From: Candidatus Sumerlaea chitinivorans
GTDB lineage: Bacteria > Sumerlaeota > Sumerlaeia > Sumerlaeales > Sumerlaeaceae
Assembly (NCBI GenBank): GCA_003290465.1
Contig: CP030759.1
Location: 1,765,144-1,829,143 of the forward strand
Length of the DNA stretch: 64,000 bases
Direction of reading: 5' to 3'
This document shows, one piece after another, positions 12,649 through 32,085 of this stretch. The notes under the pieces are model-generated. The model searched no databases. It had not been told where the DNA came from and saw only the letters and a program-made list of their open reading frames with translations. The translations under genes and the position numbers were made by a program. Every line of letters starts with the position of its first letter. Positions within the stretch are counted from its first letter, which is position 1.

Positions 12649-12669
12649 ATGGGTCAGGGCGTTGGGTAA
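12649..12669 (+). CDS. Possible leader mini-ORF (six codons)
   Basis: ATG GGT CAG GGC GTT GGG TAA follows a perfect AAGGAGG (12631-12637) with 11 bases spacing, inside the 5' leader of the repeat-protein gene. The ribosome site is better than that of many real genes here, which is the only support. It could be a leader peptide or simply a ribosome-binding decoy. Confidence 0.25.
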   Translation: MGQGVG

Positions 12670-12719
12670 GAAATGTGCGCGAGTAGTCCCTGTCCATTCT
12701 TCCAAAACGATGCGGTTTC

Positions 12720-12734
12720 GGAGGGTGCCCCTCC
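12720..12734 (+). other. Hairpin in the leader of the repeat-protein gene
   Basis: GGAGGG-TGC-CCCTCC is a perfect 6-bp stem with a 3-base loop, 38 bases before the start codon. No T-tract follows, so it is not a terminator; it may stabilise the mRNA or affect translation. Confidence 0.35.
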
Positions 12735-12772
12735 ACACGCTTAGGGTCGATTCATCACATAGGAGCACAGCA

Positions 12773-15472
12773 ATGAGAAGAGTGTTTTCAAGTTTGGTCA
12801 CGATTGCCGTAAGCCTGCTCGGACTCACAGGCTTGCAGGCACAAACCCTTCCAACTCCAACCCCGCTTCCTACTATTGGGGGGCGGATTGTCGTATCCGT
12901 GCCGCCGCAATGTACGACTGGCACTACGGTCCAAATCATCGACGTCAACACAAGCCAAGTGGTGGCGAGCGGCTCGATCAACGCTGCTGGTCTCTATGAC
13001 ACTGGCTGCGTGCTCGCCTGTAAAGGCAACAAACGCTACGTGGTTCGGGTGTTGAATCCGAATTGCGTTTTCGTGCCGTCTGAAAAGGTTGTGAATGTGC
13101 GTTGCAGCCTCAACTGCAACAAACCAACAAAGGTGAGTTTTGGCTGCGATTGCGCGCAGCAGGGTGGGCGGCTGATCGTTCAGGTTCCGCCAAGCTGCGC
13201 TGTCGGGACCACCGTGCAGATCACTACTTTGAGTGGGGCGCCCGTTTGGAGCGGGCCGTTGCCAGCAAATGGGATTCTCGACACGGGCTGCAAACTGAAG
13301 TGTCCGGCAGCTTATGTCGTGAAGCTCAAGAATGCGAATTGCACGTTCTCGCCCTCGTCTGCAGTGGTTCAGGTCCCGTGCTGCCCGAACTTCGCAAAAG
13401 TGGCGTTTAAGTGCCAGTGCGCCGAACCCCGCGGACGCATCGTTGTGCAGATGCCACCGACATGCGCGCCCAATACTACGGTGAATATCTACGATGCAGC
13501 GGGGACATTGGTAGCGAGCGGACCGGTCAGCGCGAGCGGGGTATTTGATACGAAGTGCACATTGATCTGTCCCGGTGTCTACACCGTCCAGCCCGTAAAC
13601 CAGAACTGCACGTTCCTCCCGGCTCAGAAAACAGTGGAGGTTGCCTGCTGCCCAGAATCCTCCACGGTGATGTTTGAATGCACATGCGAGCCCCCAAAAG
13701 GTCGCATTCGGGTGCATGTGCCGACGGATTGCACGACCGACACTGTGATCACGATCACGGATGTGCAGGGGGTGACGGTAGCCTCCGGGCCGGTGAATGC
13801 AAACGGAGTCTTTGACACTGAGTGTACGTTGCCGTGCCCGGGAACCTACACCGTGACAGCGGAGAATCCGAATTGCCTCATCATTCCGCAAAGCCAGCAG
13901 GTTCAGGTGGCTTGTTGCCCGGATGTGACGGACGTCCAACTTGGCTGTCGGTGTGACTCGCCGAAGGGACGATTGATCGTAAACACCGATTGCCCACCGG
14001 GGACGATCACCGAGATCATTGTGAAGGATGACCAAGGCAATGTGGTGACAACTGGAACCGCCGCTCCAAACATGCCTTTCGATACTGGATGCACCTTGCC
14101 GTGCACAAAAACTTACACTGTCGAAGGCATTCACCCGCAGTGCGAAGTGACGTCGGCCACCGTCCAAGTGCCTTGCTGCGATGTCGGAGTCGCGGACGTG
14201 GTGCTGCATTGCAATTGCGAACCTCCGAAGGGACGCATTAAGGTCCAAGTAAACACGAATTGCACAAGCGGTACCACCGTAACAATTCAGGATGCGACGG
14301 GTGCCACGGTCGCATCGGGCCCGGTCAATGCTAACGGTGTTTTCGATACCGGCTGCACGTTGACCTGCCCGGGAGTCTACGTTGTCACGCCGCAGGCAAC
14401 AGGAATTACCTTCCAACCGCCCAGCGCGCAGGTGCAAGTTGGGTGCTGCCCAGATCTGACGCAGGTTTCTTTTGACTGCGAGCAAACGACACAGCCTTGC
14501 ACGCCGCCTCCGGCAGATATGGTGGCTTGGTGGCCGCTGGACGAGCCGGCCGGCGCAACGAGCGTGGTTGATATCGTTGGAAGCGTCGCGAATAACGGCA
14601 CGCCGAAACCGAATGGCTCGGCCGGCAGTGGCAACGGCCCAAACCCGGTTACCGGCATGGTTGGTGGAGCCCTCTACTTCTTCTCGAACCACTTTGTAGA
14701 GGTCCCGCACGATTCCACGGATCTGGATTTTGGAACTGGAAGCTTCACCATTGACGCGTGGGTAAACGTCGTACCATGTGGCTCCGGCTGGTATGCCCCG
14801 ATTGTTGAGAAATACGACTACACGCAAAATGTGGGATACCGCTTGGGCGTGGATAACACGAACCTTGTCTTCACGATCAACGGCTACTCTATCGTGGCAC
14901 CTGGCGCTGTTCCAACTGGTAGCTGGCAGCATGTGGCAGCCACTGTTTTTGTCAGCGGGTCTGGGAACTCAGGAGTGACTCTTTATGTCAACGGCTTAGC
15001 GGTACAAACATGGTTCCTAATGTCTCCGCTGGGATCCGTTTCCAACTCAGTCCCCCTCTGGATCGGCTACTCCACCCCATCCCAGCAAGGCCTCTGCGAG
15101 ATCGCAATTGATGAGCTTGAGCTCTTCAAACGGGCACTGACGCAGGCTGAAATTGCAGCCATCTACAATGCAGGCCCGGCTGGGAAATGTCGGACAACTG
15201 GCCGCATCTGGGCAAGGGTAGGACCATGGTGCTTGGACATGGCGCAGGTGGTGTTCAATGTCTATGATGCGAACCAGAACTTGGTGCTGCAGGGAACACC
15301 GGATCCGCAGACGGGAGCATGGCTGAGTCCGTGCACTCTCGACTGCACCCAAACCTATACGGTCGTGCCGGTGAGCACGCCGCCGCTGCCCTTTACGCCC
15401 CCCTCGTGGCAGTTGCAGGCGACATGTTGCCCGGGCGTGCCACAAATGGCAGCAAGCTTCGGATGCCCGTAG
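12773..15472 (+). CDS. Secreted surface protein: seven Cys-rich ~89-residue repeats with an inserted LamG-like domain
   Basis: About 899 residues. The start is the ATG at 12773, because it has AGGAG eight bases upstream and opens directly into a signal peptide (MRRVFSSLVTIAVSLLGLTG, cleavage near LQA/Q); the frame itself is open further upstream. A short Thr/Pro linker is followed by six repeats starting near 12881, 13166, 13433, 13700, 13967 and 14231. Each reads GRI-V-V-x-P...C...VASGPVNANGVFDTGCTLxCPG-Y-V...C-F-P...VxVxCC...C-x-C and holds about six to eight Cys. Next comes a LamG/concanavalin-like domain (about 14518-15175, MVAWWPLDEPAG ... WVNV ... SWQHVA ... IDELELFKRALTQAEI), then a seventh diverged repeat (15200-15469). 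The LamG part suggests glycan or matrix binding. I do not recognise the repeat as a named family. The many disulfides point to an extracytoplasmic location. Confidence 0.85.
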   Translation: MRRVFSSLVTIAVSLLGLTGLQAQTLPTPTPLPTIGGRIVVSVPPQCTTGTTVQIIDVNTSQVVASGSINAAGLYDTGCVLACKGNKRYVVRVLNPNCVFVPSEKVVNVRCSLNCNKPTKVSFGCDCAQQGGRLIVQVPPSCAVGTTVQITTLSGAPVWSGPLPANGILDTGCKLKCPAAYVVKLKNANCTFSPSSAVVQVPCCPNFAKVAFKCQCAEPRGRIVVQMPPTCAPNTTVNIYDAAGTLVASGPVSASGVFDTKCTLICPGVYTVQPVNQNCTFLPAQKTVEVACCPESSTVMFECTCEPPKGRIRVHVPTDCTTDTVITITDVQGVTVASGPVNANGVFDTECTLPCPGTYTVTAENPNCLIIPQSQQVQVACCPDVTDVQLGCRCDSPKGRLIVNTDCPPGTITEIIVKDDQGNVVTTGTAAPNMPFDTGCTLPCTKTYTVEGIHPQCEVTSATVQVPCCDVGVADVVLHCNCEPPKGRIKVQVNTNCTSGTTVTIQDATGATVASGPVNANGVFDTGCTLTCPGVYVVTPQATGITFQPPSAQVQVGCCPDLTQVSFDCEQTTQPCTPPPADMVAWWPLDEPAGATSVVDIVGSVANNGTPKPNGSAGSGNGPNPVTGMVGGALYFFSNHFVEVPHDSTDLDFGTGSFTIDAWVNVVPCGSGWYAPIVEKYDYTQNVGYRLGVDNTNLVFTINGYSIVAPGAVPTGSWQHVAATVFVSGSGNSGVTLYVNGLAVQTWFLMSPLGSVSNSVPLWIGYSTPSQQGLCEIAIDELELFKRALTQAEIAAIYNAGPAGKCRTTGRIWARVGPWCLDMAQVVFNVYDANQNLVLQGTPDPQTGAWLSPCTLDCTQTYTVVPVSTPPLPFTPPSWQLQATCCPGVPQMAASFGCP
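12881..14500 (+). repeat. Six tandem ~267-bp repeats encoding the Cys-rich module
   Basis: Unit starts are spaced 285, 267, 267, 267 and 264 bases. The repeat is clear at protein level (GRI...GPVNANGVFDTGCTL...CCP) but diverged at DNA level, so it is an old duplication rather than a recent slippage array. Confidence 0.85.
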
Positions 15473-20675: not shown

Positions 20676-22460
20676 TTATTGTTCGAACAGTTCGACGAGA
20701 TATTTCCGCCGGCTCGGATGGCGAAGTTTGTTTAGGGCCTTTGTCTCGATCTGGCGGACACGCTCACGCGTGACGTTGAAGATCGTCCCCACCTCTTCGA
20801 GGGTTCGCGGGAAGTCGTTGTTCCCAATCCCGAATCGCAAGCGAAGCACCTTTTCTTCGCGCTCGGTAAGGGTCTTGAGGACTTCTTCGATCCGCTGGGA
20901 CTTGAGCACGTGCGCCGCCTGCTCGGCAGGGTTCGGAGCATCCGGATCATTGATGAAGTCACCAAAGGTCGAGTCACCATCCTCGCCGATGGGTGTTTCG
21001 AGGGAAATGGGTTGTTGAGCAATTTTTAGCACGCGGCGGATTTTGTCCACCGGCATTCCCATTTTGTCGGCGAGTTCCTCGGGGGTGGGTTCGCGACCAA
21101 GCTCCTGAACAAGATAGCGGCTTGCACGCGAGAGCTTGTTAATGGTTTCGATCATGTGGACGGGAATACGAATGGTACGTGCCTGATCGGCAATCGCACG
21201 TGTAACTGCTTGGCGAATCCACCACGTTGCATAGGTAGAAAACTTGTAGCCACGTTGGTACTCAAACTTATCGACTGCGCGCATGAGGCCGATGTTGCCC
21301 TCTTGGATGAGATCGAGGAACTGGAGGCCCCGGTTGACATACTTTTTCGCAATCGAGACGACGAGGCGGAGATTCGCTTCGACGACTTTCATTTTCGCCC
21401 GGTGAGCAATTTTCTCGCCGGCTTCGATCTCTTTGACGATCTGGGACAATTCTTCGTACGTGTTCCCAGCCTCTTTTTCGAGGCGCTTCACCAAACGCTG
21501 AGCCTCACGCACTCGCTTGTCGAGTTTGATGAACTGGTCGAGCGTGAAACCGTATTTCTTTTCCAGCGCTTTGGCTTCGGGGGAATTCTTGCGCGTCTTT
21601 TTAACGATACGGCGCAGATCCTCTTCACTGAGCATCGTTTCCAAAAGAACAGTGCGGATTTCCTGATTCGCACGATCGATCTGCGCGTAAACGTTTTTGA
21701 TGTGGGAGGCAATTTTTTCGATCTCAGTAAAGTTAAGATCGATCTTGAGCAAATGCTCAAAAATCGTTTGCCGATCCTTCTCGATTTGCTTGTGAAGCTG
21801 GTCGCGCTTGCGCTGGGACAGGTCTGGATTATCAAGCTCATCGAGCTTGTTCATAATGTCCGCGTAGAGCGCCAAAATCGCGTCGAGATTGTCAAGAATG
21901 TGCGCGGTGTAGCGATTGCGCTCTTCGGGATTATTCTCATCGACGTTCGCACGCAATACGTCGTTTAGGTTGACCGCTCCCGACTCAACGCGGGTGTGAA
22001 GCTTCTTGAGCTCGATCGCGGTGGCACTGGCGCGCGCGATGGCCGCGGTAATTTCGTGGCGTCCCTTTTCGATCTCTTTGGCAAGGGTGATCTCTTCCTC
22101 GCGCGTGAGAAGAGGGACTTTTGCCATTTCGGTGAGGTATTGACGCACCGGATCATCAGTTTTCGACCCGTCGCCATCGCTCTCCTCCGGCAACTCGTCT
22201 TCGAGCGCCTTGGCGAAATCGAGGTCCTGCTCTTCTTCGACGGCGTCCTCACCCTTAGCCGCAAAAGCTGCGGCATCTTTGTCGTCGTAGACTTCAATGT
22301 CGAGCTGCTCTAATTGCTCGAGCAGCGAGTCCATTTCCGCCGTGGTGGCATTAGCTGGCAGGAAATTGTTGATATCCTCGTAAGTGAGGTGTCCTTTTTC
22401 CCTGCCCAGTTCAAACAAAGACTCGTAGTCTTGGTAGTTCGAGTCGCGGCTTGGCGTCAT
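20676..22460 (-). CDS. rpoD: Primary sigma factor RpoD (sigma-70)
   Basis: The housekeeping sigma factor, 594 residues. Region 1.1 is at the N-terminus ([17 protein letters not shown]), followed by an acidic linker and region 1.2 ([11 protein letters not shown], residues 102-112). A non-conserved region of about 200 residues follows (about 150-345). Region 2 has [17 protein letters not shown] (383-399) and [13 protein letters not shown] with the promoter-melting aromatics. Regions 3 and 4 have [17 protein letters not shown] as the -35 helix-turn-helix and RHPSRR at the end. The ribosome site GGAAGGGG precedes the ATG. All elements of a group 1 sigma are present. Confidence 0.98.
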
Positions 22461-22922
22461 AGCAATGCGCCCCTTCCGTGGACTTGGTCAGGTAACTCCG
22501 CAAATGTCATCGCTCTCGACCGTGGTTTTCGCAGGCGAGTCCTCGCTTCCGTAGCCCAATCGAGGTGAAAAATCACCACTCCCGAAATCCACCATCTTGC
22601 CTATGTTCATGGCAACAAAAGGGAGGTAAATATGGGTAGGAAGTTCGGACGCTCGTCATGCGGTCGGTCAGGCTCTTCTTGCGAAGTACCATCTCCAAGA
22701 GAATCTTAAAGTTTGGCGCGCCACCGCGCTTTGGCGCGCGCATGATGATAAACAGCAGTGTTTCCTGCTTATTCAGTCCGGGCGTCCGGGGGGCCAAGTC
22801 TCAGAGTTCTTGGCGCCCACCGGAAACACCCGAGCCATGCTTAGGTTTGGCAACCCATCAAAGCCCACATGGTTGCCAGGGCAGGAGACTTTTTCCTGCT
22901 TTCGCAATCACAATTAATCAAT
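22461..22922. other. 462-base non-coding stretch upstream of rpoD
   Basis: No supported gene. It should hold the rpoD promoter, but I find no clear -35/-10 pair. It contains an 8-bp inverted repeat (22848-22878), a second small hairpin GCAGGA-N7-TCCTGC (22881-22899), and GGCGCGCC/GGCGCGCG copies at 22715-22740. Confidence 0.4.
22848..22878. other. Inverted repeat upstream of rpoD
   Basis: TGGCAACC (22848-22855) and GGTTGCCA (22871-22878) are perfect inverted copies with 15 bases between. No T-tract follows on the minus strand, so it is not an obvious terminator for the gene before it. Confidence 0.35.
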
Positions 22923-23333
22923 TCAGAAATCAGGATCGGAGAACGGGAAGAAGTCGTCGTCCTCCGGTTCCTCGGCGTCCATAGCCGCAGATTCGATCAG
23001 GCTTCTGTACTTCTTACGGAAATTGGAAATCTTCTTGTCCGCAATCAGATCAAAATTCAATGGGCTGGCTGGATCATAGAATTCCATTATCGCGTTCAGG
23101 CCAGATTTCGCATTCTCACGGAGTTGGAAAAAGCGATCCACAAACGCTTGGGTTGTTCGGTCACTGTCCGGCACGGGTGGCCTTTGATCGAAAATCTCAG
23201 CCATGTAGACATCAACTGCCCTTCCCTGTGCAGCATCGAGCTCCCATTCAGCATCGGCGAGCCGATTCAATAGCTCAGTGAGTTCTGCTTCGGACGCCGC
23301 TGCCTCTCGCTCAAAGGTCTCGAGATGATGCAA
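22923..23333 (-). CDS. Distal part of a frameshifted sigma-70-like protein (degenerate region 2)
   Basis: A 136-residue frame whose first usable codon is a TTG at 23333 with hardly any ribosome site. I read it as the continuation of the gene that starts at 23989, reached by a -1 shift at the A6 run 23335-23340. Joined this way, the C-terminal part aligns with RpoD residues about 319-420: EREAAASEAELTELLNRL matches [18 protein letters not shown], and FFQLRENAKSGLNAIMEF matches [19 protein letters not shown]. The promoter-melting Trp pair of RpoD region 2 is replaced by Lys-Lys (ADKKIS). The protein ends in an acidic tail (EEPEDDDFFPF) and has no sigma region 3 or 4. Homology is my reading by eye. 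Confidence 0.6.
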   Translation of the reverse strand: MHHLETFEREAAASEAELTELLNRLADAEWELDAAQGRAVDVYMAEIFDQRPPVPDSDRTTQAFVDRFFQLRENAKSGLNAIMEFYDPASPLNFDLIADKKISNFRKKYRSLIESAAMDAEEPEDDDFFPFSDPDF

Positions 23334-23989
23334 CTTTTTTCCAGCGCTACGATGTCGGATAAAGTCTTCTCGTCCATTTCCAAGGCTGGTTGGTCCTCAT
23401 TGCGACCACTCGAGGCATTTTTAGCGATCGATTTCAGCTCGGTCTCGGTCAGCTCTAATTGCTGAAGAGCTGCTCTGAGCTCCTGACGATCTTCGTGCCA
23501 AATGCGAAGCTTTTCTAAAATGGAGTTGGCAAGCTTACGAATGCTCGCATTGGTAAGGTTCAATTCGCGCAGCGCATGAAGAATCCGCACGCGCGAGTCC
23601 TCGCAATCTCTGAGCAGGCTTTTTTGTTTCTCCGGAGCTGTATCGGGCGAATAAGCTTGCTGCCACAGGCTTCGGATACGCGCACATTCAAATAGGATTG
23701 CTTCGATAGAATGTTTGAAGCGATTTTGCCATTTTCGTGGGTTCGACACGCACGAACGCGTTGTTAATTGCATTCCTTTTTTGGGAAACTCGATTGCAGC
23801 ATATTCACGCAGGGCATCCGCAAGAAGGCTGGTGCTGGAGATGATTTTCAGAAGCTCATCGCGTGCTTCTTCCATTTGCGTTAGATACTCTTGGCGCTCT
23901 TCCTTGCTCTCCACTCTCCTTTCCCTGTAATACTCGATGACCACGAAGACGGTGCTAAAACTGGCGGCTCGATTTTTCTCCTCGCCCAT
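23267..23989 (-). CDS. Proximal part of a frameshifted sigma-70-like protein (region 1.2 end and non-conserved region)
   Basis: A 240-residue frame. The start is the ATG at 23989 with a perfect AAAGGAGG upstream. The helical sequence aligns without large gaps to RpoD from the end of region 1.2 through the non-conserved region. KEERQEYLTQMEEARDELL matches Rpo[20 protein letters not shown] (residues 120-138), LRELNLTNASIRKLANSI matches [18 protein letters not shown], and DRQELRAALQQL aligns with [12 protein letters not shown]. The match breaks off at codon 218 exactly where the A6 run occurs and continues in the next frame (22923-23333). The last 22 residues of this frame (SCIISRPLSERQRR...) are off-frame sequence. 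The gene lies 460 bases upstream of rpoD on the same strand. It could be a sigma decoy or regulator made by slippage, or a decaying duplicate. Confidence 0.65.
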   Translation of the reverse strand: MGEEKNRAASFSTVFVVIEYYRERRVESKEERQEYLTQMEEARDELLKIISSTSLLADALREYAAIEFPKKGMQLTTRSCVSNPRKWQNRFKHSIEAILFECARIRSLWQQAYSPDTAPEKQKSLLRDCEDSRVRILHALRELNLTNASIRKLANSILEKLRIWHEDRQELRAALQQLELTETELKSIAKNASSGRNEDQPALEMDEKTLSDIVALEKSCIISRPLSERQRRPKQNSLSY

Positions 23990-24450
23990 TTTTTCCTCCT
24001 TTTCTGGCCGTGGCCCCTGCCCCCTCGCCAGCGACATCGTACCACCCCGAACCAAGCTGTGGAGAGTCACCGTTTTCCGAATTGCCCAAAGACGCGGTCA
24101 CACACACGCACACGGTGGTTCATCGCGGAGTATCAGCAAGACAGGAAAACGGACAACTTTAGCCGTGGATGGTAAATGCGGCGCGTGCGAGGTAGCTTGT
24201 TGGATTTATCTCCATTTGTGGTGAAGAAAGCCACTGCCCCCCCCTATTCTACTGCAGGATTAATGCTCCGGGTGCTTTTTATTCACATGGGTATTTTTTC
24301 CTCAATGTCGTTTTTGGGAGGCCACCCAATCCCATTCAGGATACCCCTGCAACATTCTGTCTCCGCATTTCGGGTAGTGCTTCGCATTGCGCCGGATTCT
24401 GTTGAATTCTTTGGCGACGAAGTCATTTCTAACCCACGGGACAGCGAACA
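23990..24450. other. Divergent intergenic region of 461 bases
   Basis: It lies between the sigma-like gene (-) and the TsaC fusion gene (+), so it must hold both promoters. I find no convincing promoter pair, RNA gene or repeat. Weak open frames here lack ribosome sites and overlap each other. Confidence 0.35.
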
Positions 24451-26394
24451 ATGGTGCGGGTGGCAATCGTCTATACGGAAGCGGCAAATCCCTCCGCATG
24501 GGAAGAGTGCGCTCGCTCGTTGCGCGACCAAGGGCTTGAGGTTTTGCTTTTTTGCGCTGACCCATTGCGCCGCGGGCCTCAGCTTCTCGAATTTCTTGAG
24601 CAGGCCCACCGAGAGAACGTGGCCAGCATTTTGGCGATCGAGGGCAACGTCCTTCGCTGCGCACCCATACTATCGGGCCACAGCAACGTTCCGGTTTTTG
24701 CCTTGTGCACCAGTTCTGAAGCAACTGACTCAGCGGCTTTGCGCGTGTTGAGTGACGAGCCGGAGTTTGCACTGGTGCAGCCGCCAACAGTCGCAGCCGC
24801 CGTGGGTCTTTTGCTGCGAGTCTTACAAAGGGTGCCTCAGACTCAACCTGCTGACACTTCGTCAGGTGAAAGAAAGTCACCCGTCGCACCAAAATCGGAG
24901 AGCGGTCAGGTGCGTGCAAAGCCGGCAGCGGTAACCGCTCGTGAAAAACATTCCGACAGCGATGATTGGTTGACACGCATCGCGAGCAATTTCCGCCCAC
25001 AGCTTAAGACTCAACGCATCCCGACACATCGGCCCAACGCCCCTCGGCCACTTGAGTACAGCGTGGAACTGCGCAAGGTGGTTGCGACTGCACGCGATAT
25101 TGCTGCGGCCTACGGAAGCGAATTTGTCGGCACCCTTCATTACCTTGCGGCCATCATGGACTCCCCGCAGAGTATCGGGCACGAAGTTCTCCGGCGAACA
25201 AACGTGGATTTTGACGCGCTGGCGCAACGGCTCACTTCAGCTTTCCCCAAGGCGGAAACTCAAACCGTAGCGACGTTCGCACCGGATGCAGGCGCGACTG
25301 CAATGGTCTCGCTCGCGCGACGGATTGCGCGCAATCGGGGGCGTCCGCTCTTGACGACCGCAGATTTTCTCGAGGCGATCGCCACGCAGGCTGAGTCTGT
25401 CGCGGCCCAGATCCTCGACGAAGTTGGTGTCACGCTGGGCAAGCTCCATCAGCTTTTTGAAGCGCCCGATTTGCCCGCTGAAACGTTACCTGAATCAACG
25501 TTGCCCAAGGAGCCCGAACAAGCTCCTGTCGTGGAGATCGACCCGCAAGAGGTGCTGCGGCTCGAGTCTCGCTTTTTCAGACAACAACGCAGCTCCCGCG
25601 AGACTCATGCGGCTGCCCGAAACATGCTGTCCCATCAAGCCGAAGACAATAAGTCGACCGCGACTTCGGTACATATCGAGGTTACCGAGACTTGCCGTAT
25701 ACCTACGGACAGCGCGGAAACAAAGGATTCGAAAGGTCGGACGGTGCCACCAATCATCCTTAAGTGTGATCCTCTCAACCCACCGCTCGAAGTAGTGGAA
25801 CGAGCCGCGGATTTCCTGCTGGAAGGCAAGACGGTCTGTTTCCCCACGGACACTGTGTATGGCGTGGGGGTGGACGCGACCAACCCTGATGCGGTGGAAC
25901 GATTGTATTCCCTGAAGGAACGGATGCGCGAGAAACCCATTGCGGTCCTTATCCACTCTACCACCCAGTTACGTCACATTGTGCAGGAAATCCCACACGA
26001 CCTTGAGCCCATCATGGAAAAGTATTGGCCGGGACCGCTGACGATCGTTTTTCGACGTCGCGCCCGGAATTTCGAGGCGATTTCGCGTGATAACACGATC
26101 GGGCTGCGGATTCCCAACCACTATGTGACGCTGGCCATTCTGAGTATGGTGGGAAGGCCACTCGCTACCTCGAGCGCCAACATCTCGGGTGATGTGAGCG
26201 CAGTAGAGCCCCATGAGGCGCTGGCTCAGTTAGGGGACCGGCTCGATATGCTCATTGACGCAGGGCGCACGCCGGGAGGAAGTGCTTCTACCGTCCTCTC
26301 GGTGGTCGAAAAACCTTACCGCATTTTGCGTCAGGGCCCAGTAAGCAAAGAAGAGATCGAAACGCTTTTGGGCAACGAAGTTGTCGTGGGGTAA
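24451..26394 (+). CDS. Three-part fusion: PurE-like domain, Clp-N-like domain and TsaC/Sua5 threonylcarbamoyl-AMP synthase
   Basis: 647 residues. The C-terminal part (about 440-645) is a complete YrdC/TsaC domain that makes threonylcarbamoyl-AMP for the t6A base of tRNA. It has TVCFPTDTVYGVG, LKERMREKPIAVLI, YWPGPLTIVFRRR, IGLRIPNH and LATSSANISGD. The middle (about 200-350) looks like a double Clp-N repeat (LRKVVATARDIAAAYGSEFVGTLHYLAAI and AMVSLARRIARNRGRPLLTTADFLEAI), the substrate- or adaptor-binding fold of ClpA/ClpC. The first 130 residues resemble PurE/AIR-carboxylase in layout (VRVAIVYTEAANPSAWEECARSL ... SGHSNVPVFAL ... PTVAAAVGLLLRVL), but the catalytic loops are not clearly kept. 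Low-complexity linkers join the parts. The TsaC call is firm, Clp-N is likely, PurE-like is tentative. It converges on the GT4 gene, with stops five bases apart. Confidence 0.82.
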   Translation: MVRVAIVYTEAANPSAWEECARSLRDQGLEVLLFCADPLRRGPQLLEFLEQAHRENVASILAIEGNVLRCAPILSGHSNVPVFALCTSSEATDSAALRVLSDEPEFALVQPPTVAAAVGLLLRVLQRVPQTQPADTSSGERKSPVAPKSESGQVRAKPAAVTAREKHSDSDDWLTRIASNFRPQLKTQRIPTHRPNAPRPLEYSVELRKVVATARDIAAAYGSEFVGTLHYLAAIMDSPQSIGHEVLRRTNVDFDALAQRLTSAFPKAETQTVATFAPDAGATAMVSLARRIARNRGRPLLTTADFLEAIATQAESVAAQILDEVGVTLGKLHQLFEAPDLPAETLPESTLPKEPEQAPVVEIDPQEVLRLESRFFRQQRSSRETHAAARNMLSHQAEDNKSTATSVHIEVTETCRIPTDSAETKDSKGRTVPPIILKCDPLNPPLEVVERAADFLLEGKTVCFPTDTVYGVGVDATNPDAVERLYSLKERMREKPIAVLIHSTTQLRHIVQEIPHDLEPIMEKYWPGPLTIVFRRRARNFEAISRDNTIGLRIPNHYVTLAILSMVGRPLATSSANISGDVSAVEPHEALAQLGDRLDMLIDAGRTPGGSASTVLSVVEKPYRILRQGPVSKEEIETLLGNEVVVG

Positions 26395-27660: not shown

Positions 27661-30600
27661 ATGCAAAAGCAGGCACCGCTCGCACGTGACGGCAAAAAAG
27701 TAAACAGGACATTCTCGTTCCTTTGCTACGCGATGCAATGCTTGAGGATGTTGGGTAAGATAAGACGAGCTCGGGAAATCATTGTTTGTTCAGTCGCTTT
27801 TGTTTGTGCAGTCAGTTCCCCTCTCCAAGCAGCTTCCCCGGTGCAGACCCATCCTCTGGACAACCTGTCGACTACTCTCCCCGAACCTGAGTGGATTGCG
27901 GAGGCTGCTGAACTGTGTCGGCAACGGCTTGCCGAGCCAGACGCTCGTGTCGTGCGGACTAATGCTTCCGCGCAGGAATTGTTGGTCGAATTTGAGGTAG
28001 TACGCGTTCCCTCAGATGGCATGGTACGCATTCCCTTAGTCATTCCTCGCGGTGAGATTACCAGCTTCACTTTGCTGCAAATCGTGCGGGGCGGAAGCAC
28101 CATCACGGATGAGGCGACTCTAAAAAGCGTTCTGTGTAGCGTGGAGGAGTTAGGGTACGTTCGTGCTTTTCGGATTGCCCGGCTAAAAGTGCGTGTGGGA
28201 GAGCCCCCCTTCAGGCTGCCCACCATTGAGCGCGGCACCGTCAGCATCCGTTTCGCACCGGCGCCCCCCAACCGAGATCCCAATGCAATCCGATTCTGGC
28301 AACAGAACCGCGTGGGGATTTTCCGGCGGTTGCTCAATCAATTTGTCGCAAATCCACAAGACCTTGAGCGCTACATCGTGATTCCCGAAAGCGCAATACC
28401 GAGCTCGGTCAGTCAGCCCGCTCCTCCGCCGGAGGCCATCGCGCGGTCGCCGTTCCGTATGCGCATTCCAATTGAAGTGGACGGCATTTACCAAATCTCG
28501 GGAGCGGATTTGGAGTCGTCCGGTGTGGTGGGAAGTTGGATTGACCCACGTCACATCCGTCTCCTACTACGAGGCAAGGATGTTCCGCTGCTTTATCTAC
28601 CTGCGGACGGTACGCCGGCAAACCAGCTACGACCGGGCGACCGACTCGTTTTCTATGGCAGGGCAAACCCCTCTCCCTTTACCCTCCGCAACATTTACTG
28701 GCTAATCTATGACCCGGAAAACAAGCATCCCCAAATGCAAGCTGCTCGCCAGCCAGAAGAGACCGAACCAGCGGATACGGCGGCGGCTTTCTTCGAGAAG
28801 CATCTGATCGAAACCGACTCAAAAGTACTCACTCGGAGCGATCAATTTCTCTCGATACTTGGCTACCGATGGGTTTGGCAGCAACTGGAGCCAAACAAGC
28901 CATTCCGCGTTGAGTTCGATCTGCCCGGCCTGGCTCCTGTGGCGACTGACCTCCCCGGCGTTCTCAACCTATACGTTCATTCGTTCCCTTCGGACTCAAG
29001 CGCGACCGTGCAACTGCGCATCAATGATGTGGCTGTTGGGACATTCTCGGTTAGGAATCTTTCGGACGACCGCAAAACTTTCAAAATCCGCAGCTCAGCA
29101 TTGCGGGAACACGGCAACCGCGCCGAGATCACTCTTTTGAGCTCATCCCCTACTCCCAACCGGGCCGAGCAGGCGGAGATTTATTTGGATAATCTGGAGC
29201 TTTGGTACCGCCGCTTGTATCAGTGGGATGGGAGTGCTTTCACCTTCCATTCCCCCGACACTGGAATCAGTTCGACCAGTGCAACAAGAACGTGGGAGTA
29301 TGTGATCGGGGGGATACCAAGGGGAGAAGAACTCGTCGTTCTCGATGTCACCGAGACACATCCCTTGGTCGTCAAACACCGCGTGCAGGAAAAATCACCG
29401 GGGAATGCCGTCCTTCAGGTGCGCGCTATTGAAACTGGACTTCGACAATACGTCGCGATGCCTGTGAAGGCCATTCCGTCCGCTCCCCTTCTACCCGAAG
29501 GGGGCGAAACGACCAATCTGCGGGCACCCAACGTGAAAGCTGACTATATTATTATCGCGTACCGGGATTTTCTCGCCCCCCTCACCCCGTTGGTTCGCGA
29601 ACTGGAGAAAGCAGGGCATCACGTGCTTGTGGTGGACGTGCAATCGGTTTACGATCAGTTTGCGGACGGAGAGGAGACTCCGGAAGCCATTAAACGTTTC
29701 TTGGATTATGCGGCGCGTCATTACGAAGGGTCGGCGATGCATCCGCCCGCCAGCTATGTCTTACTGGTGGGTGATGCCACCAGCGCTTATCGGAATGAAT
29801 TTCGCAATCACGTCATCAACTACGTTCCCACGTACCGTATGGCGACGACACCGGGGGGAGCCGAGCAATGGGCCTCAGACCACTGGTACACGACTTTCTT
29901 CGGTAAGGATGACTTAGCTGACGCGTTCATTGGGCGGCTCTCCGTCAATAATGTGCGCGATCTGGAGAACATCGTTGCGAAACTTGTGGAGTACCGTTCC
30001 CAACCGCGTAGCGACTGGCAAAGGCAGGATTGGACGAGAAGCGTGGCATTCATCGCGGACCACTCGGAGTTCTCCGAGCCAGTCAACCGGGTAATGAAAA
30101 CGGTCCCCCCCTCGCTGAATACGGAGAAACTCTCGCTGGACGATGAGCCGTGGGAGGACAACTTCTACTATCCTAGGGAGATCGCAGAAGCGAAGCGTGC
30201 CAAGGTAAGCCGAGAGATGACGCGGAAAATCCGTGATCTTTTCAACAAAGGGGCCGCTGTGGTGAGCTACTTTGGTCACGGCTCTCCGAACATTTGGTCC
30301 ACGCAGCGCATCTGGTTTGGAGGTGACAGTGAGAACTCGGACAACCTTATGTTGCGCAATCGCGACAGGCTCCCATTCGTCATGAATATGACTTGCAATA
30401 GCGGGGCGATTGATTACCCGATGCCTAGGTGGAACATTTGCATTAGTGAGGATTTCCTTCGGGTTCCCAACGGCGGCGCAATCGCCTGCTATGTGCCTTC
30501 TGGCCCCGGCATGACCTTGTTCCACGAACAGTTCTCGAAAGAGATTAACCGAGCACTCTTTGCTGAGCAAACCGAGCCAGTGGTGCCAGCGCTCACCCTT

Positions 30601-32085
30601 GCAGGTTGGCGTTATATTCTTCAGGAAGGCTACACCAATTTAGTCCGCATGTTTATCTATTTGGGGGATCCAGCACTGTCGCTTCACCTCCTGCAATCCG
30701 GAGGGATGTTTCAATTGGGTTTAGCCAAGGCCGAGGAGCTATCGCTGGTCGAGATGGCGCTGCTCTCCGATCGAGTGGTCGAGGTCGGCACGACAGTGGC
30801 GGTCCGTGCTCGGCTCCGCAACAACTCGTGGGCGCCGGCACGGGAAATGACAGTGTCGTTGAGCGGCAATGGGCTCGAGCCCTCAGACGCGCCCAGTTTG
30901 AGTTTCTTCCCCGGCGAAGAACGAGAAGTAGTACTTTCGGCGCGAGTCGGCAGAGGTCTCTGTCCTGTCAATGTGCGAGTAACCGCTCGGCAAGGCAGTA
31001 GCAACGTGTTGAGGCCAGAGCCAGCTGTCGCAGTCTGCGGCCGACAACACGACGAATCGGCACCGCTCCTCATTGCAAAGGAGCTCACGGAGATTGAATA
31101 CCGCAATGATGCGGGGCTCCCGACCGCAGTCGTGCGGTCAGAGCTCTTCAATCTTACTACGGCCACGTTGCCGACGTTCACTGTGGCGCTTGAGGACCTG
31201 AACGGTGCCCTTCTTGAAGATACGCGCACAAGTGTGCCGGCATTGAGCGCAGGACAAAGTTATCGCTTTGAATTGGTGCGCCCCTATCGGCGCACAATCC
31301 CCGACCGAGAGGAGGTCCGAATTCGCCCAGAACTTCCACATTGGGTTGCAAAGCAGGAAGAAATTGAAAAGCCTACCCTCACCCTTGGGCTGGAAAACAT
31401 GCCCGACCTCGCCATTCTTCCGGGGGGGATTCTGCCACACAAGGCCATGCCGGTGGATGGTGAGACCGTTTTCTTCCGTGTGGCTGTAGAAAATCGGGGT
31501 GGAACCGTAGCTCGCAATGTTCGGGTGGATGCCTACGATGGGGACACGAGTACGGGGCAACCTCTACTTTCGCGCATTCTGAAAAAGTACGATCCTGTGA
31601 AATTGGCCCCGGGAGAACGCGGAGTCGTCACAGTACGTTGGGATCCATTTCAGAATGCGGGCGAACATGAGCTCCTGTTCCGCGTGTGGGGGGCATGCGG
31701 CAATCTCGAGAAAGACCTCACAAACAATTCTCGAACGATCCGCCTGCGCGTACTGGAGAAGTACCGGTTGAAGCCAGCTGGGCTTACCGTCATCCCTCCC
31801 GAGAGCAGTGGTCCGAATGCAAACAAGCTTCGCGTGCGGGTGAAGGTGCGCAATGAAGGTGAGAGCCCGGCCCACGGGGTCAAAGTTGTTGTGTACCGAG
31901 ATCGCAAGAACAAGACGCCCTCAAATGTGCTCGGCGAGACGTTGATTGAGGAAATCGCGCCTAAATCCGAGCAAGAGATCGAGATCGCCTACGATTTGAA
32001 ACCGCAAGATGCGGGGAAGCGATTTGAGCCCGTGTACGAGGTATTTCTGAAGGGGTCCTTGCAACGTGTCCCGTGGCCGGAATAA
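27661..32085 (+). CDS. Secreted C25 (gingipain-type) cysteine protease with CARDB-like domains
   Basis: 1474 residues. The signal peptide is around residues 30-57 (REIIVCSVAFVCAVSSPLQAA). The ATG at 27661 has a distant GAGG, so an internal start at 27733 or 27748 is possible. The central domain (about 620-1010) has the caspase-like C25 pattern: VLLVGDATSAYRN and FIGRLSV, the catalytic His in VVSYFGHGSPNIW, and the catalytic Cys in FVMNMTCNSGAID. The N-terminal half is beta-rich and unassigned. The C-terminal 400 residues contain repeated CARDB-type Ig-like units (VENRGGTVARNVRV ... NNSRTIRLRV; VRNEGESPAHGVKV). There is no type IX secretion C-terminal domain that I can recognise, unlike many Bacteroidota relatives. 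A role in extracellular proteolysis or processing of surface proteins is inferred. Confidence 0.83.
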   Translation: MQKQAPLARDGKKVNRTFSFLCYAMQCLRMLGKIRRAREIIVCSVAFVCAVSSPLQAASPVQTHPLDNLSTTLPEPEWIAEAAELCRQRLAEPDARVVRTNASAQELLVEFEVVRVPSDGMVRIPLVIPRGEITSFTLLQIVRGGSTITDEATLKSVLCSVEELGYVRAFRIARLKVRVGEPPFRLPTIERGTVSIRFAPAPPNRDPNAIRFWQQNRVGIFRRLLNQFVANPQDLERYIVIPESAIPSSVSQPAPPPEAIARSPFRMRIPIEVDGIYQISGADLESSGVVGSWIDPRHIRLLLRGKDVPLLYLPADGTPANQLRPGDRLVFYGRANPSPFTLRNIYWLIYDPENKHPQMQAARQPEETEPADTAAAFFEKHLIETDSKVLTRSDQFLSILGYRWVWQQLEPNKPFRVEFDLPGLAPVATDLPGVLNLYVHSFPSDSSATVQLRINDVAVGTFSVRNLSDDRKTFKIRSSALREHGNRAEITLLSSSPTPNRAEQAEIYLDNLELWYRRLYQWDGSAFTFHSPDTGISSTSATRTWEYVIGGIPRGEELVVLDVTETHPLVVKHRVQEKSPGNAVLQVRAIETGLRQYVAMPVKAIPSAPLLPEGGETTNLRAPNVKADYIIIAYRDFLAPLTPLVRELEKAGHHVLVVDVQSVYDQFADGEETPEAIKRFLDYAARHYEGSAMHPPASYVLLVGDATSAYRNEFRNHVINYVPTYRMATTPGGAEQWASDHWYTTFFGKDDLADAFIGRLSVNNVRDLENIVAKLVEYRSQPRSDWQRQDWTRSVAFIADHSEFSEPVNRVMKTVPPSLNTEKLSLDDEPWEDNFYYPREIAEAKRAKVSREMTRKIRDLFNKGAAVVSYFGHGSPNIWSTQRIWFGGDSENSDNLMLRNRDRLPFVMNMTCNSGAIDYPMPRWNICISEDFLRVPNGGAIACYVPSGPGMTLFHEQFSKEINRALFAEQTEPVVPALTLAGWRYILQEGYTNLVRMFIYLGDPALSLHLLQSGGMFQLGLAKAEELSLVEMALLSDRVVEVGTTVAVRARLRNNSWAPAREMTVSLSGNGLEPSDAPSLSFFPGEEREVVLSARVGRGLCPVNVRVTARQGSSNVLRPEPAVAVCGRQHDESAPLLIAKELTEIEYRNDAGLPTAVVRSELFNLTTATLPTFTVALEDLNGALLEDTRTSVPALSAGQSYRFELVRPYRRTIPDREEVRIRPELPHWVAKQEEIEKPTLTLGLENMPDLAILPGGILPHKAMPVDGETVFFRVAVENRGGTVARNVRVDAYDGDTSTGQPLLSRILKKYDPVKLAPGERGVVTVRWDPFQNAGEHELLFRVWGACGNLEKDLTNNSRTIRLRVLEKYRLKPAGLTVIPPESSGPNANKLRVRVKVRNEGESPAHGVKVVVYRDRKNKTPSNVLGETLIEEIAPKSEQEIEIAYDLKPQDAGKRFEPVYEVFLKGSLQRVPWPE

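Follow-up and report, generated by a model that had tools for sequence, protein, structure and literature searches.

The window analysed here is a stretch of 64,000 nucleotides from the genome of 'Candidatus Sumerlaea chitinivorans' BY40, an organism that comes from a Western Siberian deep thermal aquifer (PMC8092238). It contains a full-length rpoD gene and, upstream of it on the same strand, two open reading frames that overlap in different frames and are treated below as one gene, X (Table 1). In five relatives the Clp_N/Sua5 gene is separated from rpoD by approximately 270-405 bp with no gene between them, in contrast to 1990 bp in BY40. The conserved 27-nt block is still in its place, and X thus lies beyond the old rpoD leader. 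This block stands out in an otherwise poorly alignable leader and is a possible regulatory element of rpoD. The Clp_N/Sua5 gene encodes an unusual fusion, in which Clp_N repeats are joined to a Sua5/YciO/YrdC (tRNA threonylcarbamoyl) domain at the C-terminus; an N-terminal stretch weakly resembles AIRC. The family C25 peptidase gene adjoins a group 1 glycosyltransferase gene and is kept near rpoD in relatives.

Table 1. Features at and around the rpoD locus of BY40, as positions in the window
Feature	Position	Strand	Description
Secreted-looking protein	12662-15472	+	936 aa; at least six cysteine-rich repeats of ~70 aa, C-terminal laminin-G-like domain
rpoD	20676..22460	-	594 aa, full length with regions 1.1, 1.2, NCR, 2, 3 and 4; parent family of X
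27-nt block	22660..22686	-	~200 nt upstream of rpoD; at a similar distance in at least two genomes of the same family
ORF2 part of gene X	22923..23336	-	joined residues 219-355; stop at 22923
C-terminal tail of X	22926..23204	-	~94 residues; unmatched by sigma regions 2, 3 and 4; no relative in 40 genomes of the phylum
ORF1 of gene X	23267..23989	-	240 aa from the ATG at 23989; residues 28-218 resemble RpoD ~120-320
A6 run, frame junction	23335..23340	-	-1 offset; the RpoD similarity runs on in the other frame
Shine-Dalgarno sequence of X	23995..24000	-	AGGAGG, perfect; 5 nt ahead of the ATG at 23989; read directly from the sequence
Clp_N + Sua5/YciO/YrdC gene	24451..26394	+	1990 bp from rpoD
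Family C25 peptidase	27661-32085	+	1474 aa; gingipain fold, CARDB domains

An earlier note on this DNA had joined the two minus-strand frames into a protein of 355 residues. This was confirmed, with the A6 run as the point of junction. In ORF1, residues 28-218 cover the end of region 1.2 together with the greater part of the non-conserved region (NCR); the final 22 residues are off-frame. The stretch 23205..23336 in the frame of ORF2 corresponds to RpoD ~322-366, the last helix of the NCR, and is followed by an unmatched helical tail, whose acidic end the note had described. Compared with RpoD 322-366, the segment in the ORF2 frame reached a z-score of 4.6, whereas the off-frame tail of ORF1 remained at -0.7. 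Because the sequence behind the frameshift matches RpoD in the frame of ORF2 and the off-frame tail of ORF1 does not, both frames were once a single gene. Programmed frameshifting is not supported, the A6 run being out of phase for the classical A-AAA-AAG tandem slip. As explanations of the frameshift, we consider a function lost only recently about as likely as a mistake in the assembly (or a truncation to 240 aa that is tolerated). Since it occurs in the only known copy and the neighbouring conserved genes are intact, a real inactivation of X is quite possible. The boundaries of X revealed no convincing repeats or target-site duplications, and neither an Rfam search nor a promoter scan gave a useful result.

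The similarity between X and RpoD is far above chance. A search with RpoD in the whole genome of BY40, a single contig of 3,289,105 bases, retrieved RpoD itself, one ordinary alternative sigma factor and, as third match, X (E = 5.6e-6). A hidden Markov model built from 14 Sumerlaeota RpoDs scored X with 45.8 bits; a model of 36 rows gave 39.6 bits, whereas approximately 2,000 shuffles reached 12.4 at most and the reversed protein 4.2. With hhalign, ORF1 matched an alignment of RpoD region 1.2 and NCR with a probability of 94.9% (E = 4e-8). When X was searched against 40 Sumerlaeota genomes, 27 others were matched; all matches were RpoDs in the same register, mostly from X residues 28-30 to ~261. 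The pieces 29-110, 110-165, 165-219 and 219-262 each recognised the collinear piece of RpoD, with z-scores of 5.8, 7.2, 5.2 and 4.6, respectively. Residues 28-262 of X are collinear with RpoD ~120-362, so that the end of region 1.2 and the whole NCR are kept as the note had stated; the N-terminal residues 1-42, compared with region 1.2, yielded a z-score of -0.8. The NCR of the BY40 RpoD is in turn collinear with that of the E. coli RpoD.

The comparison with Pfam Sigma70_ner and Sigma70_r2, which the earlier note had recommended, gave no match to either. For Sigma70_ner (PF04546), where X stayed below the curated cut-off, this is a weak test, as the RpoD of BY40 also fails it; distant Sigma70_ner matches were present in some Sumerlaeota RpoDs (genomes G021, G031, G035 and G037). 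Sequence searches with X in Pfam, NCBIfam, PHROGs and the PDB retrieved no significant family. Single-sequence AlphaFold models of both halves of X were all-helical with low confidence (pLDDT 51 and 57), and Foldseek searches with these low-confidence models found nothing below E 0.2 and no fold match.

The note had named a decaying duplicate as the plain alternative, i.e. a partial tandem copy of rpoD which lost its function and has been decaying without selection. The frameshift and the occurrence in one genome only are in line with this explanation, as are a GC3 and a codon bias below those of the neighbours; the synonymous codon fit of X was lower than in neighbouring genes and higher than in shuffles. 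Nor were invariant residues preferentially retained, X having kept 28% of 46 near-invariant columns of the RpoD NCR and 35% of the merely conserved ones. Neutral decay, however, predicts seven to eight in-frame stops, and X has none. Simulated drift from rpoD to 25-30% identity introduced approximately eight stops, with 0 of 200 runs stop-free, and a second neutral simulation resulted in a mean of 7.5 stops (minimum 0 in 150 runs). The GC content by codon position in the two parts of X (0.56/0.39/0.54 and 0.61/0.37/0.56) shows a gene-like pattern and the Shine-Dalgarno sequence is kept. Of 52 columns with a hydrophobic residue in RpoDs, 73% are hydrophobic in X too, compared to 54 ± 6% (maximum 69%) under neutrality; where such columns had changed, 60% were still hydrophobic, compared to 38 ± 8% (maximum 54%). 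Around X, neither remnants of regions 2-4 nor a second rpoD leader were found. A long neutral decay of X is rejected by these observations and a recent inactivation is compatible with them; the frameshift may have come late, and simple decay is too simple a reading. We regard the dead duplicate as possible but rather unlikely. The absence of stops, the codon-position GC and the hydrophobic pattern indicate that X was maintained as a folded protein while most of its divergence took place. Its retention did not serve the task of RpoD itself, since the near-invariant columns are no better preserved than the merely conserved ones.

The local alignment score of X was 146 with its own RpoD, 140-142 with RpoDs of the sister genus and 86-143 with other Sumerlaeota RpoDs. 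Nine RpoDs from outside the phylum scored 42-67, the level of shuffled sequences (~48 ± 8), and X therefore probably derives from a Sumerlaeota rpoD. This origin would also be shared by an ancient, possibly horizontally moved paralogue that was not duplicated within the genus and was lost or is unsampled elsewhere. Such an age would suit the identity of 18-24% to all Sumerlaeota RpoDs, from which X is about equally distant whether they are its own or others, the sharing of only one of eight residues specific to the own RpoD, and a base composition below that of the rpoD region. On the other side, X adjoins its paralogue on the same strand, reaches its top score with the RpoD of BY40, and has no homologue in 40 genomes of the phylum. 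An ancient paralogue appears doubtful to us. In a tree, the branch of X was saturated at 10, among other long branches, and took no supported position.

The orthologues beside rpoD which the note had suggested looking for in relatives did not appear: none of 35 rpoD loci contained an X-like ORF, and five relatives have no gene at this place. Searches for an orthologue in 40 Sumerlaeota genomes retrieved RpoDs only, the tail had no relatives in these genomes, and genome contigs, viral contigs, phages and plasmids gave no match to X. Sigma70_ner matches in 156 genomes were all located in frames of 583-753 aa, i.e. inside full-length RpoDs. A profile of the RpoD NCR was applied to 291 genomes, an insensitive search which missed X itself; the second matches in Sumerlaeota fell in an ordinary alternative sigma factor, namely in its region 1.2. 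The named relatives retrieved with the RpoD of BY40 belong almost exclusively to Candidatus Sumerlaeota. One genome listed in the same family as BY40 (G006, L035) encodes an RpoD only ~50% identical to that of BY40, compared to 74-78% in other members; it is either misplaced or from a very divergent lineage.

The earlier note had aligned X with RpoD residues ~120-420 and proposed a truncated sigma factor made up of the NCR and the core-binding part of region 2, with a role as decoy for the core enzyme or in sigma exchange. Its description of X as a paralogue derived from RpoD, located next to rpoD and devoid of regions 3 and 4, was supported, with no match to either region in X or in the DNA as far as rpoD. 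The alignment itself stood for RpoD ~120-362/366 (z 4.6-7.2) but not beyond (z 0.3-1.0). The match, including that of the hidden Markov model, ends at the start of region 2.1 (RpoD ~362-366). X residues 255-355 yielded a z-score of 0.3 against region 2 and of 0.3 against RpoD 430-594, and residues 275-340 a z-score of 1.0 against RpoD 366-430; a search with X against Sigma70_r2 (PF04542) remained negative. Residues 1-28 and 262-355 matched nothing. Three of the four paired stretches presented in the note fall within the supported match, and the fourth, FFQLRENAKSGLNAIMEF, lies in the unsupported part (residues 262-355). The replacement of the melting Trp-Trp by Lys-Lys was read from an alignment that has no statistical support at this position. 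A tail predicted to be helical would suit region 2, but such helicity is generic. As judged from its sequence, X is an NCR without detectable region 2, so that a core-binding decoy does not follow; we consider the truncated sigma factor very improbable. X as a functional sigma-70 was not supported, regions 2, 3 and 4 all being unmatched. A generic coiled-coil or charged-helix similarity of an unrelated protein, to which an all-helical, charged X with weak Pfam matches to unrelated helical families might point, is already refuted and deserves next to no credence, since shuffled and reversed X failed, only RpoD and never another helical protein was matched in 28 genomes, and RpoDs from outside the phylum scored at chance.

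Very probably, X is an NCR-only paralogue of RpoD which was coding through most of its history. A copy of a Sumerlaeota rpoD would have given rise to X in tandem upstream of rpoD, and X would have been cut down to the end of region 1.2 and the whole NCR, with a short N-terminus of its own and a new, acidic-ended tail of ~94 residues. Its evolution would have been very fast, with selection holding a folded helical domain and no longer the invariant residues of RpoD. The NCR touches promoter DNA at -16/-17 as well as β', and its contact with β' antagonises σ2/clamp binding and favours promoter escape; the regulators GrgA and RbpA also contact the NCR (PMC7403470). If active, X might, in a weaker step of this scenario, bind as a free NCR to the partners of RpoD's NCR, namely the β' face or NCR-binding regulators. 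Such a protein would act in trans by competing for the β' contact or for these regulators, and its effect would be to modulate the RpoD holoenzyme, not to hold the core enzyme in the manner of a sigma factor. Among putative activities of X, NCR contacts are more likely than a core-holding decoy, which is unlikely because region 2 is not detectable. The poor conservation of invariant NCR residues counts against retained NCR-specific contacts and hence against this mimicry of the NCR, which we propose as a tentative and somewhat improbable mechanism. As a whole, the identity and history of X with NCR mimicry as the favoured guess seem probable to us. A function of X at present and the lack of one are about evenly balanced; our prediction that X is still functional is made with slightly less than even confidence. 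That a free-standing NCR from a partial rpoD duplication influences the RpoD holoenzyme in trans, the frameshift being an assembly error or tolerated, is unlikely when taken as one combined statement.

Among known systems, X resembles the NCR of RpoD (Sigma70_ner, PF04546), as it aligns collinearly with residues ~120-362 of RpoD from its own phylum. In contrast to this domain, it stands alone without regions 1.1, 2, 3 and 4, is ~23% identical and has largely changed invariant residues. Split sigma factors of the SigO/RsoA type consist of separate region 2 and region 4 subunits which act together. With SigO/RsoA of Bacillus subtilis, X has in common that a partial sigma-like protein exists apart from the remaining sigma factor; RsoA, however, provides region 2, whereas no region 2 is detectable in X, and a partner fragment did not turn up either. 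A split sigma factor of this type was rejected accordingly, the only other above-threshold relative of RpoD in the genome being an ordinary alternative sigma factor. The T4 protein gp55 is likewise derived from a sigma factor and lacks a canonical region 4, but works via region 2, which X does not have. GrgA and RbpA provide a precedent for the NCR surface as a regulatory docking site (PMC7403470); they bind the NCR from outside, whereas X is itself an NCR copy.

Few parts of the housekeeping sigma factor are as poorly understood as the NCR. To our knowledge, no stand-alone NCR has been described so far, and a literature search, with most subscription journals outside its scope, found none. 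If our reading of X is true, an NCR-only protein kept to ~23% identity would mean that this domain can work outside a sigma factor, and X would be a natural trans-acting probe of the role of the NCR in promoter escape. If X is newly dead, it would still be a clear case of a primary sigma factor gene shedding a domain-sized paralogue.
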